The position numbers were made by a program, and so were the translations under genes. The notes under the pieces are model-generated. The model did no database searches, was not told where the DNA came from, and saw nothing but the letters and a program-made list of their open reading frames with translations. Positions 14,760 to 38,905 of a DNA stretch of 64,000 nt are shown piece by piece. The DNA lies in assembly GCF_000423445.1 (NCBI RefSeq), contig NZ_KE384019.1, forward strand, positions 1 through 64,000, read 5' to 3'. The stretch's first letter is position 1. Every line of letters starts with the position of its first letter. The DNA comes from Acidipropionibacterium thoenii DSM 20276 (GTDB lineage Bacteria; Actinomycetota; Actinomycetes; Propionibacteriales; Propionibacteriaceae).

Positions 14760-15320
14760 ATGGCTCGGCCGACACCCTCTCGTGAGCTGGCGCACACAAC
14801 CATCGACACTCCGGTCGGGCCGCTTCTGCTGGTCGCCAGCGGGCAGGGGCTGGTCCAGATCTCCTTCGAGTGCGAGGGGTTCGACGAGGTCCTGGACGCT
14901 CTTGCCGGCACCCTTGACGGGCATCTGGTGAGCGGGCCGTCCGTGCTGGGGGCACCTCAGGAGGCAGCGCTGGGGCAGGCCGCCCGTCAGATCGACCAGT
15001 ACTTCCACCGGGCCCGGACCGCCTTCGAGGTGGCGATCGATCCCCTGGTGCTGGTGGGATTCCGAGGAGACGTGCAACGGCATCTGACCACCATCGGGTA
15101 CGGGCAGACCGCCAGCTACGCCCAGGTCGCCGAGGAGCTGGGCAGGCCAGGTGCAGTCCGGGCGGTCGGTACCGGATGTGCCACCAACCCCGTCCCCATC
15201 GTGCTGCCGTGCCACCGGGTGGTGCGCAGCGACGGGGCCCTCGGCGGATATCGGGGAGGGCTGGAGATCAAACAGAGACTGCTGGATCTGGAGGCCCAGA
15301 ATCTGGTGGCGGCCGGCTGA
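14760..15320 (+). CDS. ogt: Methylated-DNA--protein-cysteine methyltransferase
   Basis: The 186-aa suicide enzyme transfers alkyl groups from O6-alkylguanine to its own cysteine. The active site IVLPCHRVVRSDGALGGYRG (~145-164) contains PCHRV with the acceptor Cys. The preceding YGQTASYAQVAEELGRPGAV segment is the DNA-binding helix-turn-helix with its Tyr and Arg finger region. The N-terminal domain THTIDTPVGPLLLVASGQGL-like strand is present, and the length is standard for Ogt. An AGGAGG lies 6 nt before the ATG. Placement after the Fpg/Nei gene gives a small DNA-repair neighbourhood. Confidence 0.92.
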   Translation: MARPTPSRELAHTTIDTPVGPLLLVASGQGLVQISFECEGFDEVLDALAGTLDGHLVSGPSVLGAPQEAALGQAARQIDQYFHRARTAFEVAIDPLVLVGFRGDVQRHLTTIGYGQTASYAQVAEELGRPGAVRAVGTGCATNPVPIVLPCHRVVRSDGALGGYRGGLEIKQRLLDLEAQNLVAAG

Positions 15321-15357
15321 GGCCGGGTCTGCTTCCAGACGGGTGACGCTGCGCCGC

Positions 15358-15924
15358 TCAGCTCACCCAGCTGATCCCGGCCGCGGTGAATTCCTGGACC
15401 ACCCGGGCCACCGCATCCGGATGCACCGCAGCTGTCAGACCGCCGAGCACCCGGGTCTCGAATCCCGCCAGCTCGGCGTCCAGGGCGGTCGCCCGTACGC
15501 AGTAGTCGGTGGCGATCCCGCAGATGTCGACCTGGTCGACGGCTCGCTCGCGCAGCCACTCGGCGAGCGCCTCCCCGTCGTCAGCGCCGCCGATGGTCCC
15601 CTCGAAACCGGAGTAGGCGGCTCGATAGGAGCCCTTGTCGAAGACCGCGTCGAAGGCGACATCCCTGAGCGCGGCATTGAGCTGTTGGCCCGGCGTGCCG
15701 ACCACGCAGTGCGGCGGCCAGCTGTCGACGAAGTCAGGATGATCGGAGAAGTGGGTGCCCGGGTCGATGTGGTGGTCCCGGGTGGCCACCAGAAGGGAGT
15801 AGCCATGTGCTCCCGACAGCAACCCGGCGGTCCGGTGGGCGACGGCGTCTCCCCCCTGAACCCCCAGTGCGCCGCCCTCGCAGAAATCGACCTGGATGTC
15901 GACGACGATGAGTGCTGTGGCCAT
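15358..15924 (-). CDS. pncA: Nicotinamidase (PncA-like)
   Basis: The 188-aa isochorismatase-fold hydrolase converts nicotinamide to nicotinate for NAD salvage. The triad is visible: Asp in ALIVVDIQVDFCEGG, Lys in FDKGSYRAAYSGFEG and Cys in IATDYCVRATALDA. The metal site is in TRDHHIDPGTHFSDHP (Asp-x-His...His). I start at ATG 15924 (MATALIVVDIQ), which has GGAGGGG just upstream on the minus strand; the frame stays open to 15975. It is convergent with ogt. Confidence 0.9.
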   Translation of the reverse strand: MATALIVVDIQVDFCEGGALGVQGGDAVAHRTAGLLSGAHGYSLLVATRDHHIDPGTHFSDHPDFVDSWPPHCVVGTPGQQLNAALRDVAFDAVFDKGSYRAAYSGFEGTIGGADDGEALAEWLRERAVDQVDICGIATDYCVRATALDAELAGFETRVLGGLTAAVHPDAVARVVQEFTAAGISWVS

Positions 15925-16253
15925 GGCCCCTCCCGGCAGGTAGCGTGCGACCAGTTGCGACGAACCTAGTACCACCGGTCAATCCTGCATGTCCCCGCCG
16001 CTGAGATGCCGCACGACCCGAGCTGCCGGGTACCAGGCCGGATTGGCCGATAGTTGTGTCAGCCTCCGGAAAGTTCGGACGAAAGTTGCTGGTCCGCGGC
16101 CTGATGGCGGGGTTGAATACCTAGTGAGAGGGCCACCGAGCACTTCGGCGAGGGGTCTTCTGAGGGATCTGGGGACTTGAGCGGTCCGGTCGGGAAAGGT
16201 GTCACCCGGCCGGACCGCTCAAGCGTTGTACGGGGCTCTGCTGGACAACTCTC
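15925..16253. other. Intergenic between pncA and the kinase gene
   Basis: Apart from the terminator-like hairpin at 16177-16222 I see no gene or RNA. Its right end lies 31 bp after the histidine kinase stop. Confidence 0.5.
16177..16222 (-). terminator. Hairpin downstream of histidine kinase
   Basis: TTGAGCGGTCCGG and CCGGACCGCTCAA form a perfect 13-bp stem around a 20-nt loop, 31 bp after the kinase stop. It lacks a U-tract. Confidence 0.6.
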
Positions 16254-17492
16254 TCAGCTGGTGGACGCCGGATCGGGCAGGGTCAGGGTCATGAGCCATT
16301 CGTGCTGCTGGCCGACCGGGTGGGCCGAGACCACGCACTGTGCCTCCTCGGCCTCTTTCTGAAGCCCCCGGATGCCCAGCCCGGTCGACGCCTCGGGTCC
16401 AGCGGCGCCCATCTCGATGGTGTTGCGCAGGCTCACCTGCCAGCCATTCGGCACGGTGGCCGAGCCGATCGTCACACGCGCCCCCAGTCCGCCGTGCTTG
16501 GCGGCGTTGGTGACCGCCTCGCTGAGAAATCGTTGCAGCAGTGTCCGCTGCTGAGCGGTGGGCAGCAGCTCGGCGGTATCGGCGCTGATGGCGAGGTGGA
16601 CGTGGTCGCCGATCACCTGGAGGTCCTGGGCGGCGTCCTTGATCAAGGTGGCGACGGGCACAGCGCGATGATCTCCCGAGATCGGCAGCGGGGATCCCGC
16701 GATCGGCTCCGACTCGCCGTCGTCATTGAGCAGCCGCAGCACCCGTCGCAACTCATCGAGTGCTTTCCGGCTGGTCTGCTCGACGCTCCCCAGCAAGTCG
16801 ACATCCTGTTCGGGAGACTGCTGGGAGGCATTGCGGCGAGCCCGTGCCCCGGCCAGCCCGGCGACGATCAGGGTGAGTTCGTGGGCGACATAGTCGTGCA
16901 TGTCGTGGGCCAGCCGCTGCCTCTCATGCTCGGCGGCCTGCTCCACCTGCTTCTGGATGTCGGCGATCCGCTGCTCCTGGCGTCGGCGTTCGCTGCGGGC
17001 ATTGAGCACTGCGCGCAGCACCAGGCCGAGTGCGGTGCTGGCGACGAGGAGGAATGCGCCGGTCCACAGGATTGCCGACGGGTCGTGGGACCACTGCGCC
17101 CACTTGATCGCCATCGCTGTCGCACCGCTCACAAGCAGCGCGGTGTTCAGTGCGACGAAGGGGAGGGTGGCCGTCGCCGTCACGACAACGCAGACGATCG
17201 GCCCCACGACTGTCAGGAGCGCAATGTTGTTGGCAGCAATGCTGACGGGGATCGCCCCCCACAGCAGGAAGGCTGCGATGCGGGGAGACCAGCACACAAC
17301 CCCCAACGCTAGCGCACACAGCAGCAGTCGGACGAGCTCCACGACAGCACCGGGGGCGCCCAGTCCACGCGACGCTCCGACAAGATCGTCAAGGTTGAAG
17401 AGAATCGCGAAGCACGAGACGGTGATGGCTATCGCGCGGGGCAATGCGTGGGTTTCCTTCCAGAAACCCTCCCGTGAGCTCTTGAGTCTCAT
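16254..17492 (-). CDS. NarL-type sensor histidine kinase
   Basis: The 412-aa membrane kinase has about five or six TM segments in residues 18-165 with almost no extracytoplasmic domain. A coiled linker follows (RSERRRQEQRIADIQKQVEQ), then a HisKA_3 domain with RQRLAHDMHDYVAHELTLIV, where His199 is the phosphoacceptor. The HATPase domain has FLSEAVTNAAKHGG (N box) and GLGIRGLQKEAEEA (G box). It lies 40 bp downstream of the small secreted peptide gene on the same strand, and its presumed response regulator is divergent at 18033. This three-gene layout suggests the kinase senses the peptide or an exported product at the membrane. Confidence 0.9.
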   Translation of the reverse strand: MRLKSSREGFWKETHALPRAIAITVSCFAILFNLDDLVGASRGLGAPGAVVELVRLLLCALALGVVCWSPRIAAFLLWGAIPVSIAANNIALLTVVGPIVCVVVTATATLPFVALNTALLVSGATAMAIKWAQWSHDPSAILWTGAFLLVASTALGLVLRAVLNARSERRRQEQRIADIQKQVEQAAEHERQRLAHDMHDYVAHELTLIVAGLAGARARRNASQQSPEQDVDLLGSVEQTSRKALDELRRVLRLLNDDGESEPIAGSPLPISGDHRAVPVATLIKDAAQDLQVIGDHVHLAISADTAELLPTAQQRTLLQRFLSEAVTNAAKHGGLGARVTIGSATVPNGWQVSLRNTIEMGAAGPEASTGLGIRGLQKEAEEAQCVVSAHPVGQQHEWLMTLTLPDPASTS

Positions 17493-17511
17493 CGCTGCAT
17501 GCTGACCGGCG

Positions 17512-17526
17512 CCCCCGGGTCGGGGG
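17512..17526 (-). terminator. Stem-loop between peptide gene and kinase gene
   Basis: CCCCCG-GGT-CGGGGG is a perfect 6-bp GC stem in the 40-bp gap. It could partly terminate transcription so that the peptide is made in excess over the kinase. Confidence 0.5.
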
Positions 17527-17532
17527 AATGAC

Positions 17533-17715
17533 CTATCGGCAGTAATTGGGCAGCCAATAGCACATCATCGAGTTGAGACCCAAGGGCGTGACCTTCGTGG
17601 CGCTGCTCGGGCTGGAGCTGATCGGGGCGGCCTGGGCCGGCACGGCGCCCAATCCCAGCGAGGCGCTGAGCAGGACAGCGGCGACAAGAGCTCTGACGGA
17701 ACGGTGCGTTTTCAT
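17533..17715 (-). CDS. Small secreted peptide precursor, candidate signal for adjacent kinase
   Basis: This 60-aa protein has a clear Sec signal peptide: MKTHRSVR, a hydrophobic core (~9-23), then AVPAQA with cleavage expected after Ala29. The mature 31 residues end SMMCYWLPNYCR. Cys52 and Cys59 bracket the hexapeptide YWLPNY, so an 8-residue disulfide or thioether loop is possible at the C-terminus. An AGGAGA sequence 8 nt before the ATG supports translation. It lies immediately upstream of the histidine kinase and divergent from the response regulator. I recognise no family. A role as pheromone, small bacteriocin or envelope-stress peptide is inference. Confidence 0.7.
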   Translation of the reverse strand: MKTHRSVRALVAAVLLSASLGLGAVPAQAAPISSSPSSATKVTPLGLNSMMCYWLPNYCR

Positions 17716-17736
17716 CTCTGAATCTCCTGATGACTG

Positions 17737-17764
17737 TGAGGGACGCTGTAAATGATGAGGGACG
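17737..17764 (-). promoter_or_regulatory. Direct repeat in peptide-gene promoter
   Basis: TGAGGGACG occurs at 17737-17745 and 17756-17764, a 19-bp period (about two helical turns), 22 bp upstream of the peptide ATG. This is the geometry of a response-regulator dimer site. The adjacent divergent regulator is the likely binder. Confidence 0.45.
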
Positions 17765-17948
17765 GGGGCTCTGGGGCTTCGGACCGGTGGGCTCCGCCGA
17801 CCGCGCTCAGGCGGTCGATGCTGCCCACACTAACTGGTGCCCGGCGAGTCGTTGTCGGCGGGTTGATGAATGGCAGAAATGTATCACCGGGGCGCCAGCA
17901 GGGATCACCCTTCCCAGTCGTGAATGCTGTGTCGTCGGCGAACACCGG

Positions 17949-18010
17949 CATCGGCGGATCGGGGTCGCGGGGCAGGGGCATCGGCGAATCGGGGCATCGG
18001 CAGATGTCGG
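17949..18010 (+). repeat. Three near-identical 16-bp repeats before the response regulator
   Basis: CATCGGCGGATCGGGG (17949), CATCGGCGAATCGGGG (17979) and CATCGGCAGATGTCGG (17995) occur in the 80 bp before the regulator start, the last ending 10 bp before its -10 box. They could be operators for autoregulation or simple tandem duplications. Confidence 0.45.
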
Positions 18011-18032
18011 CACGAGCAGATACCCTGTCGGA

Positions 18033-18752
18033 GTGAGCAAGCTGAGAGTCCTGGTGGTCGATGACGACCAGGTCCTGCGCGACGGACTGGCAGCCTTGCT
18101 GCGCTTCGACCAGACGGTGCCGATCGAGTCCGTGGAGACCGCCCGTGACGGCCAGGAGGCACTGGTGAGGTGCATCGCCGATCCGCCCGATGTCGTCGTG
18201 ATGGACATCAGAATGCCGCGGATGGACGGCGTCGAGGCGACGCGCAGGATCGTTCGGGAGCACCCCGAGATCAAGGTCCTCGCGCTGACGACCTTCTCGA
18301 CCCAGGAGTACGTCGCCTCGATGCTGGCCGCAGGCGCCAGCGGCTACCTGGTCAAGGACAGCACCGAGGAGCTGTCGGAGGCGCTGCGGGCCGTGCTGGC
18401 TGACGAGTTCTACATCTCCCCGCGACTGTCCAGCGTGCTGGTGAAGATGGTGCGGGGCTCCGTAGCTGCGGTGGACTCGGGTCCCGCAGATGGCGACGAG
18501 CCGGCGTCTCACCCGGGGGGATCGCGGTTCCTTCCCGACCTTCCGCTGACGGAGCGAGAGTGCGAGGCAGTCGGCTGGTTGGCCCACGGCTACTCGAATG
18601 CCGAGATCGCAACGGCGATGGGTGTCTCGGTGGGATCGATCAAGGGATATCTCAGCAGAGCGGGCGAGAAACTCGGCGTCCGCGACCGCGTCCAGGTCCT
18701 TCTCGAGGCCGCCCGGCTCGGCATCGTCACACTCGGGACAGACGACGACTGA
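18033..18752 (+). CDS. NarL/FixJ-type response regulator
   Basis: The 239-aa regulator has a receiver domain (SKLRVLVVDDDQVLRDGLAA) with phosphoacceptor Asp58 in DVVVMDIRMPRMDG, Thr in LALTTFST and Lys in YLVKDSTEEL. A 45-residue linker (SGPADGDEPASHPGG) follows, then a LuxR HTH (LTERECEAVGWLAHGYSNAE, then IATAMGVSVGSIKGYLS). It should pair with the divergent HisKA_3 kinase. The GTG at 18033 lies 6 nt after TACCCT and has no Shine-Dalgarno, so it is probably leaderless. The frame is open upstream to 17730, but that region holds the promoter repeats. Confidence 0.9.
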   Translation: MSKLRVLVVDDDQVLRDGLAALLRFDQTVPIESVETARDGQEALVRCIADPPDVVVMDIRMPRMDGVEATRRIVREHPEIKVLALTTFSTQEYVASMLAAGASGYLVKDSTEELSEALRAVLADEFYISPRLSSVLVKMVRGSVAAVDSGPADGDEPASHPGGSRFLPDLPLTERECEAVGWLAHGYSNAEIATAMGVSVGSIKGYLSRAGEKLGVRDRVQVLLEAARLGIVTLGTDDD

Positions 18753-18851
18753 ACCTGATGCCGGGCTTCACGGCCCAGCTCGCCGGCGGTTCCCCTGTGC
18801 GCTTCCCCCTCCTATAGTTCGGGGAACATCAACCGTGGAGGGCAGACCGAT

Positions 18852-20351
18852 ATGGCAAGTGCACCAGACCGTGGCGAGGCATCACAGGCCGGTGAACCGC
18901 GACAGGATCGGCGTCTCGAGGTCTCCGACGTCACCGTCGTCGAGCCAGCAGTTCTGAGGAAAACCATCGCCGGCACCATCGTCGGCAACCTGATGGAGTG
19001 GTACGACATCGGGGTCTACGGCTATCTCGCGGTGATCATCGGCCGGGTCTTCATGCCCGGCGGTTCGCCCACCGCGCAGAACCTGTTCTCCCTGGGAGTC
19101 TTCGCGGTGACCTTCATCGCACGGCCGCTCGGCGGAGTGGTGCTCGGCCAACTCGGGGACCGAGCCGGCCGGCAGAAGGTGCTCGCCTTCACCCTGCTGA
19201 TGATGGCCTCGGCGACCTTCCTCATCGGGGTCCTGCCCGACTACTCGAAGATCGGGTTCTGGGCGCCGATCCTGCTGATCGTCCTCAAGCTGCTGCAGGG
19301 ATTCTCGACCGGTGGGGAGTACGCCGGTGCGACGACCTTCCTCACCGAGTTCGCCCCCGACCGGCGCCGCGGATTCCTGGCCGCCCTGCTGGACCTGGGC
19401 TCCTACCTGGGATTCGCCTTCGGCGCCGCGGTCGTCTCGGTGCTTCAGCTCACCCTCTCCCCGGACTTCATGGCCAGCTGGGGATGGCGTCTGCCGTTCA
19501 TGTTCGCCCTGCCCTTCGGGCTGGTGGCGCTGTACTTCCGCTCGCAGATCGAGGAGACCCCGGCCTTTCAGGAGGCCAAGAAGCTGCAGCAGGAGGAGGA
19601 CAGCAAGGGGCCCAAGTCCTTGCGGGAGGTGGTGGCCACCTTCTGGCGCGAGATCCTCGTCGCCATCACGCTGGTGGCCGCGGCCAACACCGCCGGATAC
19701 GCCCTCACCAGCTACATGCCGACCTATCTCACCAGCACGCTCGGCTACGACGAGGTGCACGGCACCCTGCTGACCTTGCCGGTGCTGATCGTGATGAGCC
19801 TGTGCATCCCGCTGGCCGGGGCCCTGTCAGACCGGATCGGCCGGCGGACGGTACTGCGGATGGCCTCGATCGGAGGCGTCGTGCTGGCGATACCGGCCTT
19901 CCTGCTGATGATGCACGGGGTCGTCTGGTCGACCCTGCTCGGGCTCTTCGTGCTCTCGGTGCCGGTAGCCCTCTACGTCTCCAATCTCGCCTCCTGCCTG
20001 CCGGCGCTGTTCCCGACCTCCTCCCGCTACGGGGGTATGGGCATCTCCTACAACATCGCAGCTGCGGTCTTCTCGGGCACCGCGCCGTTCATCATGGAGG
20101 CCCTGGTCGCCCTCACCGGCAAGGCGCTGGCCCCGGCATTCTGGGTGATCCTCACCTCGGTCGCCGGGTTCATCGCGATCTTCTTCCTGCCCGAGTCGGC
20201 ACGTCGTCCGCTGCCGGGCGGGATGCCGACGGTCTCCAGCGATCAGGAGGCCTCCCAGCTCGTGGAGGGGCAGGAGGCCAATCGGGACCTGGACGTCGAC
20301 GAGGTCTTCCGCCAGTTCGAGTTGGATCGCGAGGGGTCATCGGTTCGCTGA
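18852..20351 (+). CDS. MFS transporter, metabolite:H+ symporter (MHS/ProP-like) family
   Basis: The 499-aa permease has 12 predicted TM helices after a ~35-residue hydrophilic N-terminus. The VGNLMEWYDIGVYGYLAVII signature in TM1 (residues ~44-63) and the GQLGDRAGRQKVLAFTLLMM loop are typical of MHS members such as ProP, KgtP and CitA. LLQGFSTGGEYAGATTFL in TM4-5 is also diagnostic. The substrate (proline, betaine or a dicarboxylate) is not deducible. GGAGGG lies 8 nt before the ATG, and TATAGT at 18813-18818 is a good -10. It stands alone, in the same direction as the regulator 100 bp upstream. Confidence 0.88.
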   Translation: MASAPDRGEASQAGEPRQDRRLEVSDVTVVEPAVLRKTIAGTIVGNLMEWYDIGVYGYLAVIIGRVFMPGGSPTAQNLFSLGVFAVTFIARPLGGVVLGQLGDRAGRQKVLAFTLLMMASATFLIGVLPDYSKIGFWAPILLIVLKLLQGFSTGGEYAGATTFLTEFAPDRRRGFLAALLDLGSYLGFAFGAAVVSVLQLTLSPDFMASWGWRLPFMFALPFGLVALYFRSQIEETPAFQEAKKLQQEEDSKGPKSLREVVATFWREILVAITLVAAANTAGYALTSYMPTYLTSTLGYDEVHGTLLTLPVLIVMSLCIPLAGALSDRIGRRTVLRMASIGGVVLAIPAFLLMMHGVVWSTLLGLFVLSVPVALYVSNLASCLPALFPTSSRYGGMGISYNIAAAVFSGTAPFIMEALVALTGKALAPAFWVILTSVAGFIAIFFLPESARRPLPGGMPTVSSDQEASQLVEGQEANRDLDVDEVFRQFELDREGSSVR

Positions 20352-37006: not shown

Positions 37007-37944
37007 TGCTCGACCTCCATTGACGGATCGGTGGTGGTGGTCCCGGCGGCATTGATGGCCGCCTGCCGCTTGGACCGGTTGGATCCGCCGGTGCTGAACC
37101 CGCGGCCGTAGTAGGCCTCCACGTAGTGCTGGCCCACCATCAGGACACTGGTCATCACCAGATACCAGAAGGCGGCCACGATGAGCAGCGGGATCGGGGC
37201 GTAGATGCGATTGGCGATGTTGTTGGTGGCGAACTGCAGATCCAGGGTGAAGGGCACCGCCAGCACCAGGGAGGTGGTCTTCAGCATCCCGATGGTCTCA
37301 TTGCCCAGCGGCGGGATGATGACCCTCATCGCCTGGGGGATGACGATCCGGCGCAGGATGAGCGAGGGCTTCATGCCCAGTGCCTTGGCCGCCTCCGCCT
37401 GGCCGCTGTCGACGGATTCCAGCCCGGAGCGGATGATCTCGGCCAGGTAGGCGCCCTCGTTGAGTCCCAGGCCGATGACGGCGGCCGCGAATGCTCCGAT
37501 GATGGCGGAGGTGTTGAAGGAGACGAACTGGGGGCCGAACGGGATGCCGAGCCCGATCACCGGGTAGAGCACCGCGACCAGCCCCCAGAAGATCAGCTGG
37601 GTGTAGACCGGGATGCCGCGGAAGACGAAGATGTAGGCCCACGACACCCCTCTCAGCACCGGGTTGGAGGCGGTTCTCATGATCGCCATCACCAGGGCGA
37701 GGATGGTGCCCAGGACCATCGAGCAGACGGTGAGCAGCAGGGTGTAGCCGATGCCCTCGATCACCTTGACATCGCGCAGGTACATCCAGACGATGCCCCA
37801 CTTGAAGTTGGCATTGGTGACCAGTCCGTGGATCAGCATCGCGGCCAGGATCGCGACGATGATCGCCGCGATGAGTGTGCCGGGATGGAAGACCTCCTTG
37901 GCTCTGATCCGGTTCGGGATCTGCGCGTGTTGCTCGTGTGCCAT
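37003..37944 (-). CDS. Polar amino-acid ABC transporter permease
   Basis: The 313-aa permease is of the HisM/GlnP type, with about five TM segments. The EAA loop QAEAAKALGMKPSLILRRIV followed by IPQAMRVIIPPLGNETIGML (~210-245) docks the ATPase. An N-terminal TM at ~25-45 and a long hydrophilic C-terminal tail (GGSNRSKRQAAINAAGTTTT) extend the usual ~220-residue core. I chose ATG 37944 because GTGGAG lies 8 nt upstream; GTG 37953 is also in frame. With no second permease, it should homodimerise. Confidence 0.9.
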   Translation of the reverse strand: MAHEQHAQIPNRIRAKEVFHPGTLIAAIIVAILAAMLIHGLVTNANFKWGIVWMYLRDVKVIEGIGYTLLLTVCSMVLGTILALVMAIMRTASNPVLRGVSWAYIFVFRGIPVYTQLIFWGLVAVLYPVIGLGIPFGPQFVSFNTSAIIGAFAAAVIGLGLNEGAYLAEIIRSGLESVDSGQAEAAKALGMKPSLILRRIVIPQAMRVIIPPLGNETIGMLKTTSLVLAVPFTLDLQFATNNIANRIYAPIPLLIVAAFWYLVMTSVLMVGQHYVEAYYGRGFSTGGSNRSKRQAAINAAGTTTTDPSMEVEQ

Positions 37945-37963
37945 GTCGGTCACTCCACTCTCG

Positions 37964-38905
37964 TCACTTCACCGGCGGATTGATCTGCGATGTCTTGATC
38001 ATGCCGTCCTCGTTGCCCCAGGTGGCCAGGATCTTCTTCATGGTGCCGTCGTCGATGAGTTTCTGGGTGGCCGCCTGGACGGCCTTGGACAGGCCGTCGT
38101 CCTTCTTGGCGGTGACGACTCCGAAGGGCTCGGCGTCGGTGATACCACCGAGCTGCTCCATGGCGCCGTTGGTCTGTTCAATGGAGTAGGCGATGATCAT
38201 CGAGTCGGCATAGGAGACGTCGGCCTTGCCGCCGATGACATTGGTGGTGGCGTCGGTCTGGGTCTTGTAGGACAGGATCTTGACCGCCGACTTCCCGTCG
38301 GCCCTGCAGGTCTTGTCCTGTGCCTGGGCATCGGCCTCCTCGGAGGTCCCGGTCTCCACCGCCACGGTGACCCCGCACAGCGAGTCGGCGGCGATCTTCT
38401 TCGGGTTGCCCTTGAGCACCGCCTTGGCCATGCCGGCGGTGAAGTAGGAGATCATGTTGACCTGCTTCTCGCGCTCGGCGGTGATCGTGAAGGAGGAGAC
38501 CGACATGTCGTACTTGGAGCCGACCGAGGGGATCAGGGTGTCGAAGGTGGCATTGGCGAAGCTCACCTTGACTCCCATCAGCTTGCCCATCGCCTCGGCG
38601 TAGTCGACGTCGTAGCCGATGATGGTGGAGCCGTCGGCCGCGACGAACTCCGCGGGTGCGTAGCTGGCATCGGCGCCGATGGTGAGGGTGCCCTTGTCGG
38701 CGATGGACTTGGGGACCAGCTTGGCGATCGCGTCGTCCTTGTCGATGGAGTCGATGAGCGTCTGGTTGGACGCCGTGGAGGCCGAGGCGGAGGCGCTCTG
38801 GCCACCGGAGGAGGCCGTCTGGGAGGCGTCGGTACAACCTGCCAGCGCCATCGCGGCGGCAATGCAGAGCGCCGCGATGGCGCGAGGAGTGGTGGTTCTG
38901 ATCAT
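37964..38905 (-). CDS. Amino-acid binding lipoprotein 1
   Basis: The 313-aa lipoprotein has a signal sequence ending ALAGC (Cys24 lipidated), a Ser/Ala-rich tether, then a PAAT solute-binding domain (LTIGADASYAPAEFVAADGS, GYDVDYAEAMGKLMGV, SSFTITAEREKQVNMISYF). It delivers a polar amino acid to the permease. It is closely similar along its length to the next protein upstream, so the two arose by tandem duplication. The gap to the permease is about 20 bp, with GTGGAG in it. Confidence 0.92.
   Translation of the reverse strand: MIRTTTPRAIAALCIAAAMALAGCTDASQTASSGGQSASASASTASNQTLIDSIDKDDAIAKLVPKSIADKGTLTIGADASYAPAEFVAADGSTIIGYDVDYAEAMGKLMGVKVSFANATFDTLIPSVGSKYDMSVSSFTITAEREKQVNMISYFTAGMAKAVLKGNPKKIAADSLCGVTVAVETGTSEEADAQAQDKTCRADGKSAVKILSYKTQTDATTNVIGGKADVSYADSMIIAYSIEQTNGAMEQLGGITDAEPFGVVTAKKDDGLSKAVQAATQKLIDDGTMKKILATWGNEDGMIKTSQINPPVK

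Follow-up and report, generated by a model that had tools for sequence, protein, structure and literature searches.

Does the small gene in front of a membrane-bound histidine kinase encode the very signal that this kinase perceives? This question is raised by a three-gene locus at positions 16254 to 18752 of a 64,000-nucleotide (nt) stretch of Acidipropionibacterium thoenii DSM 20276 (contig NZ_KE384019.1), hereafter the window, in which a 60-residue precursor peptide and a HisKA_3 sensor histidine kinase face a NarL-type response regulator. An earlier note, made from the letters of the window, had likened this arrangement to peptide quorum sensing. From the recurrence of the peptide in front of related kinases and from the joint divergence of its C-terminal ring and the sensor domain of the kinase, we infer a signalling role, and the locus quite probably constitutes a self-contained peptide-pheromone circuit. 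The three-gene unit, i.e., the precursor, the six-helix HisKA_3 kinase and the divergent NarL/LuxR-type regulator, recurs across genera, and its other neighbours do not.

The precursor peptide and its occurrence in front of the kinase

The precursor gene (17533..17715, minus strand) is an open reading frame (ORF) with an ATG start that ends 40 nt before the ATG of the kinase gene. It is preceded by the ribosome-binding site AGGAG (17724..17728, minus strand); the sequence AGGAGATTCAGAGATG at this site is shared, without change, by the window and the two copies of the system carried by genome G003. The first 29 residues (17629..17715, minus strand) resemble a Sec-type signal peptide, with A-Q-A (residues 27-29) before the presumed cut, and are followed by a spacer of 22 residues and by C52-YWLPNY-C59-R. 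The C-terminus of the precursor, SMMCYWLPNYCR, comprises Cys52 and Cys59, which probably close the tip into a ring (17539..17562, minus strand; C-x3-P-x2-C). The secreted precursor 40 nt before the kinase and the two cysteines flanking YWLPNY, both put forward in the earlier note, are thereby retained at the level of the sequence. For the window peptide, no significant match was found in Pfam, NCBIfam or solved structures, and 47 related peptides gave weak family matches only, to WGxxGxxG in five (best expectation value (E) 0.00087) and to the lipoprotein attachment motif LPAM_1 in three (best E 0.0027).

Within the genus of the window, similarity alone was sufficient to find the peptide directly 5' of the kinase in five genomes and six copies, and both cysteines are retained in all six. 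Genome G003 carries two closely similar copies of the system (C1:25173 and C24:6285, the latter on a 12-kilobase (kb) contig), with the rings CFWLPNYC and CYWLPNYC. A kinase profile search of 198 genomes of the window's family and 245 from the family to which Kocuria varians belongs provided 142 loci for examination. These were the best-scoring ones, and 7 in the window's family (mostly second operon kinases and fragments) and 8 in the Kocuria family were passed over. A precursor lies directly 5' of the kinase in 109 of the 142 loci (52/72 and 57/70, respectively), a fraction that is not an unbiased prevalence since the profiles were built from peptide-bearing kinases. Five loci (L134, L138, L143, L149 and L341) were set by hand to carry no peptide, L138 repeating the peptide of L101; L295 was likewise counted as negative although a precursor with the ring CRYIPQLC is visible, and L111, L121, L142 and L144, which have no upstream DNA, still count among the 142. 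At L149 (genome G036), a plausible ring precursor ending in WLCQWIPYLEGCPKR is located about 639 nt before the kinase match and about 500 nt from the kinase frame. The earlier note had proposed to look for homologous peptides upstream of HisKA_3 kinases and would have given up its reading had such loci consistently lacked the peptide or had the cysteines varied; the counts given above do not refute it on either point. The divergent regulator is present in 98 of the 109 peptide loci, versus 11 of the 33 loci scored as lacking the peptide.

The rings are highly diverse, with 91 distinct sequences among the 109. The search for these loci required the Cys pair, but set no condition on the Pro/Gly position or the hydrophobic positions. 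The rings span 6 (1 locus), 7 (12), 8 (75), 9 (7), 10 (8), 11 (1), 12 (1) and 13 residues (4). In the 75 eight-residue rings (C-x6-C), residue 5 is a proline in 38 and a glycine in 32 (70/75), and positions 4 and 7 are mostly occupied by large hydrophobic residues. Some aromatic residue is present in 94 of the 109 rings. Examples are CYYLPWLC in Raineyella antarctica, CSTPFFHLFC in Arachnia propionica, CGYFLYLFC in [Pseudopropionibacterium] massiliense, CRIMPWFC in Micropruina, and, within Kocuria, CGYFPYLC (K. varians), CGYLPLLC (K. salsicia) and CHYWPVLC (K. marina). According to a simple heuristic applied in place of a signal-peptide program, the leaders exhibit K/R before the hydrophobic core in 104/109 and A-x-A after it in 96/109. 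These features bear on the possibility that the peptide does not diffuse and is instead a membrane- or wall-bound accessory subunit of the kinase that uses its cysteine pair to sense envelope stress or the redox state. The fixed genetic linkage to one kinase, the cysteines themselves and the weak lipoprotein attachment matches in 3 of the 47 peptides agree with such a subunit, whereas the A-x-A after the core and the 91 different rings do not, and we consider it unlikely.

A short ORF beside an ordinary DesK-like kinase could also be present by chance, as short ORFs are common and the catalytic core of the kinase is indeed DesK-like. A strict pattern, i.e., an ORF with a hydrophobic N-terminus that ends in C-x6-C plus at most six residues, was counted in 110 kinase loci (591,901 base pairs); across the analysis as a whole, hydrophobicity thresholds varied between scripts from 1.55 to 1.75. 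The strict pattern gave 43 sense matches (42 distinct, as L138 repeats L101) and no antisense match, and all 42 distinct ORFs are the ORF directly 5' of a kinase. Ten Markov sequences of 64 kb, scanned on both strands, gave a single match. In the window, two matches were observed, the precursor and an ORF at 37907-38186 (plus strand) that ends in CSMAPLVCSME and is perhaps due to chance. Of 20 chosen pairs, 19 have a ratio of nonsynonymous to synonymous differences (pN/pS) below 1 in the peptide gene, which is under mostly purifying selection. Given the sense-only matches, these ratios and the position conserved in 109 loci, a chance ORF is extremely improbable.

The peptide appears to be tied to one kinase clade. 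Mapped onto a tree of 193 kinases, presence of the peptide requires 13 changes, compared with a mean of 62.7 after shuffling, and none of 500 shuffles was as low. In the order of the window, a kinase match at E 1e-60 was found in 45 of 293 genomes, 44 of them in the window's own family and one outside it (G337). A class-wide search of 393 genomes provided 20 loci outside the window's family with no convincing peptide, so the system is not a general feature of the class. A kinase match at 1e-70 is present in 11 of 376 genomes from the order of Kocuria, and the 12 kinase loci of this order include a ring precursor in 7, four of them additional (L391, L393, L395 and L397). No peptide was found at L183 of Rothia and L184 of Corynebacterium, and plasmid searches returned distant kinases only. 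Other HisKA_3 loci of the window's genus (29 fetched of 58 listed; 28 judgeable, L411 being left out as it ends at a contig edge) provided no convincing precursor and one spurious match. The same holds for genus g13 (30 loci fetched of 48 listed), with no convincing precursor and two spurious matches. Genus g13 is presumably Cutibacterium; seven of its loci have a GC content of 0.57-0.62.

Joint divergence of the ring and the sensor domain

Among close relatives, the different parts of the locus diverge at markedly different rates. The regulator, leader and catalytic domain of several close pairs show a DNA identity of about 0.9 or more, whereas the stretch that runs from the ring to the end of the kinase membrane domain retains only 0.5-0.7. 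Between L320 and L327, the identity is 0.99 in the catalytic part, 1.00 in the leader and 0.63 in the sensor. Along this pair, the profile remains at 0.82-1.00 from the regulator side through the leader, declines across the ring end of the peptide gene, lies at 0.53-0.66 in the sensor region, and returns to 0.99-1.00 in the catalytic domain and 0.97-1.00 beyond. L306 and L309 exhibit identities of 0.95 (catalytic), 0.97 (leader) and 0.65 (sensor), and the profiles of L306/L309 and L327/L342 resemble that of L320/L327.

In 47 close pairs of kinases of up to about 530 residues, the mean DNA identity is 0.82 upstream, 0.85 in the leader, 0.74 in the ring, 0.67 in the sensor, 0.84 in the catalytic part and 0.74 downstream; the compared pairs share species and hence are not independent. 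A sensor dip, for which the sensor identity had to lie 0.20 or more below that of the catalytic part and 0.10 or more below that of the upstream part, is present in 20 of these 47 pairs. Sensor identity is 0.76 in pairs with the same ring (n=10) and 0.64 in pairs with different rings (n=37), with catalytic identities of 0.86 and 0.84, respectively. At the protein level, the peptide kinases of different g13 species (21 pairs) show 0.83-0.93 identity in the catalytic part and 0.40-0.75 in the membrane domain. Among the other HisKA_3 kinases of g13, 31 of 78 pairs reach a catalytic identity of 0.82 or more, and their membrane domains show 0.59-0.99 (mean about 0.87); the more distant control pairs show 0.20-0.85 there. 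A comparable fall in the membrane domain is mostly absent from these kinases.

This mosaic divergence is the pattern expected of a co-evolving ligand-receptor cassette and is the strongest evidence for a pheromone circuit. The co-divergence of a ligand and its sensor domain as a cassette, a mark of peptide pheromone two-component systems, is seen here among close relatives and not in the broad comparison. A bound accessory subunit would give coupled divergence too, but a redox sensor would require neither so many rings nor a membrane domain that changes alongside them between close species.

Several observations weigh against a pheromone circuit. The ring length varies from 6 to 13 residues, the peptide calls at L105, L131 and L145 are weak, and several related kinase clades and subclades lack the peptide. 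The g13 comparison is the sole control for the 47-pair analysis, because no peptide-free pair passed the filter, and one of its control pairs, L381/L373, also has a fast sensor (catalytic 0.84, membrane domain 0.59). The fast sensor is visible only among close relatives. In the tree set, the membrane domains of peptide and other kinases are about equally conserved at catalytic identities of 0.45-0.75 (0.27/0.27, 0.35/0.41 and 0.48/0.47, respectively), and above 0.75 the values of 0.56/0.61 and 0.61/0.78 rest on 9 and 6 peptide-free pairs. In 341 non-independent pairs, ring identity correlates not only with the sensor (partial r 0.29) but also with the catalytic part (partial r 0.19), and the two G003 copies differ in their ring with nearly the same sensor DNA (0.97). 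No local target gene is conserved near the unit in the 16 stretches compared. Finally, secretion, disulphide formation, processing, kinase activation and signalling are all inferred.

Proposed mechanism and comparison with known systems

In the proposed circuit, the precursor would be exported by Sec and cleaved after A-x-A, and probably once more near the ring, and, once outside the cell, the two cysteines would be joined by a disulphide. The resulting ring, which is mostly aromatic and has Pro/Gly at position 5 as a turn, would then bind to the membrane domain of a kinase that belongs to the same pherotype, and this kinase would alter the phosphorylation of the divergent regulator. The latter would control genes that are not linked to the locus and probably also the promoter region that it shares with the peptide gene. 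As AgrB was not detected in 57 relatives and nothing but the kinase and the regulator recurs in the stretches compared, maturation would have to rely on a general signal peptidase and on thiol oxidation outside the cytoplasm, unless an unlinked enzyme is involved.

In the 16 stretches compared, no genes other than those of the kinase and the regulator are conserved next to the peptide from genus to genus, which agrees with the absence of a nearby processing enzyme described in the earlier note. It also bears on the possibility that the peptide is a small bacteriocin or antagonist, sensed by the kinase and the regulator in order to control immunity or its own synthesis. Small, aromatic and fast-diversifying secreted peptides are typical of bacteriocins too, and some bacteriocins act as inducers. 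Nevertheless, no immunity, export or modification gene recurs, and the ring mostly comprises 8 residues, which makes a bacteriocin still less likely than an accessory subunit.

In Firmicutes, peptide quorum sensing is well established. In the agr system of staphylococci (AgrBDCA), a small cyclic peptide acts on a polytopic receptor without an outer domain, and the peptide and the sensor form a hypervariable cassette; all three features are shared with the pheromone circuit proposed here. In contrast to agr, the kinase is of the HisKA_3 type, the output is GerE and not of the LytTR family, the leader is Sec-type, and the two cysteines, retained in all six copies of the genus, may stand in place of the single cysteine that forms a thiolactone with the C-terminus. 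AgrB (PF04647) was found in 0 of 57 relatives, including the genome of the window, in a search whose sensitivity is unproven, as the control genomes gave one sub-threshold match. With no AgrB detected and GerE in place of a LytTR regulator, membership in agr was rejected.

The catalytic core of the kinase is closest, by sequence and by fold, to DesK of Bacillus among solved structures. This likeness covers the core alone and not the sensor domain, and DesK, itself a membrane sensor kinase, is not known to have a peptide ligand.

The system also resembles ComQXPA of Bacillus subtilis (ComX-ComP-ComA), which combines a small, variable peptide, a polytopic HisKA_3 kinase and a NarL-type output. 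As described in the parts of the sources that concern these genes, a small precursor gene for a highly variable peptide lies beside the polytopic HisKA_3 (PF07730) kinase ComP (PMC4008528), and the output belongs to the NarL family (PMC8895600); in the corresponding part of the census, no comQXPA locus is recorded outside Firmicutes (PMC4008528). Here, however, the regulator (receiver (REC) domain and GerE) is divergent and not on the same strand, the leader is Sec-type, and a two-cysteine ring stands where ComX has a modified tryptophan. The window peptide has Trp54, but tryptophan is not general across the loci, and the C-terminal tryptophan that characterises ComX is not conserved. No ComQ isoprenyl transferase lies beside the window peptide or recurs across genera, the search being confined to these neighbourhoods. 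Lacking an adjacent ComQ and a conserved C-terminal tryptophan, the system was not assigned to ComQXPA. The earlier note had regarded the NarL-type kinase as an oddity; the kinase is of this type (HisKA_3), but it is not an odd feature in itself, as ComP is already known in peptide quorum sensing from the part of the literature cited (PMC4008528). What is unusual is the combination of a Sec leader, a two-cysteine ring and no conserved processing or modifying gene nearby.

Among the titles and abstracts listed in searches of open-access PubMed Central, a coverage that leaves out most subscription papers and preprints, no report of such a system was found. For Propionibacterium, the relevant portion of a 2016 review of Actinobacteria mentions autoinducer-2 (AI-2), and for Kocuria and Arthrobacter nothing but LuxR/REC-type homologues (PMC4748050). 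With somewhat less confidence than for the circuit itself, we consider it likely that these loci represent enzyme-free peptide pheromones of a class not yet described, frequent in two families of Actinomycetota. This class would comprise Sec-exported disulphide rings (mostly C-x3-[PG]-x2-C), HisKA_3 membrane receptors, exchangeable pherotypes, and a branch in one genus (g28) with a fused pseudokinase-kinase receptor whose first module has lost the phospho-acceptor histidine. If so, two actinobacterial families, with members from skin, mouth, dairy products and soil, would carry dozens of different ring peptides together with the receptors that match them. The active part would be no more than a few standard amino acids closed by a single disulphide and could therefore be directly synthesised and tested, and the natural pherotype pairs would provide ready-made specificity tests.

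The branch g28 takes in [Pseudopropionibacterium] massiliense and Arachnia propionica. At 14 of its loci (L115, L116, L118-L120, L122, L123, L125, L127-L129, L133, L137 and L141), a peptide gene precedes a kinase of 744-784 residues with two membrane-plus-kinase modules. In 13 of the 14, the first module exhibits ELR or DLR at the position of ELHD in the second, i.e., an arginine in place of the phospho-acceptor histidine; in L122, no first motif was found. As Pfam also recognises only the second module in the two tandem kinases scanned, the first half is likely a pseudokinase, fused to the kinase of the second half. A different arrangement, on a single strand, is observed at L076 (4329-8138, genome G014) and in G020, G053 and G177, where a second, long HisKA_3 protein is encoded after the peptide and a short kinase.

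The kinase, the regulator and their surroundings

The kinase gene (16254..17492, minus strand) encodes 412 residues, the presumed receptor, with a HisKA_3 domain (E 1.5e-12). HATPase_c remains below threshold (E 0.15), with an ATPase-like fold in the AlphaFold model (mean predicted local distance difference test score (pLDDT) 82.5). The model exhibits six membrane-length helices (residues 16-41, 47-65, 70-91, 96-112, 115-135 and 138 onward), after which a helix leads into the kinase core. As the loops between the membrane helices span only 2-5 residues, the kinase has no extracytoplasmic sensor domain in the model; the earlier note, too, had seen no sensor domain. Its description as nearly all membrane applies to the sensor half, and not from about residue 190 onward, where an ordinary cytoplasmic kinase begins. 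The membrane sensor domain (about residues 16-160; 17013..17447, minus strand), hypervariable among the relatives, is the presumed ligand-binding part. The HisKA_3 phospho-acceptor region recognised by Pfam (residues 190-257; 16722..16925, minus strand) includes H199-D200, of which both residues are invariant across the 10 kinases compared.

The NarL-type regulator (18033..18752, plus strand; 239 residues, GTG start) carries Response_reg (E 9e-27) and GerE (E 9.2e-13) and faces the kinase, as the earlier note had stated. The intergenic region shared by the regulator and the peptide gene (17716..18032) is, by its position, the presumed site of autoregulation. No sigma-70-like promoter was found in a scan of 15900-18900, and no Rfam match at the gathering threshold in 15000-20000. 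Directly 3' of the kinase gene lies a strong hairpin (16175..16224, minus strand; -38.6 kcal/mol, z -6.35), which is terminator-like without a U tract and is missing from the terminator scan, which requires a T run. In the window, the three-gene unit is flanked by an isochorismatase-fold gene and a major facilitator superfamily (MFS) gene. No shared regulator-binding motif could be called in the genus of the window or in g13. In a Micrococcaceae group of 12 loci within L299-L321, a conserved TTGAC box and an AT-rich second box are found tens of nt 5' of the peptide start, aligned in 12/12.

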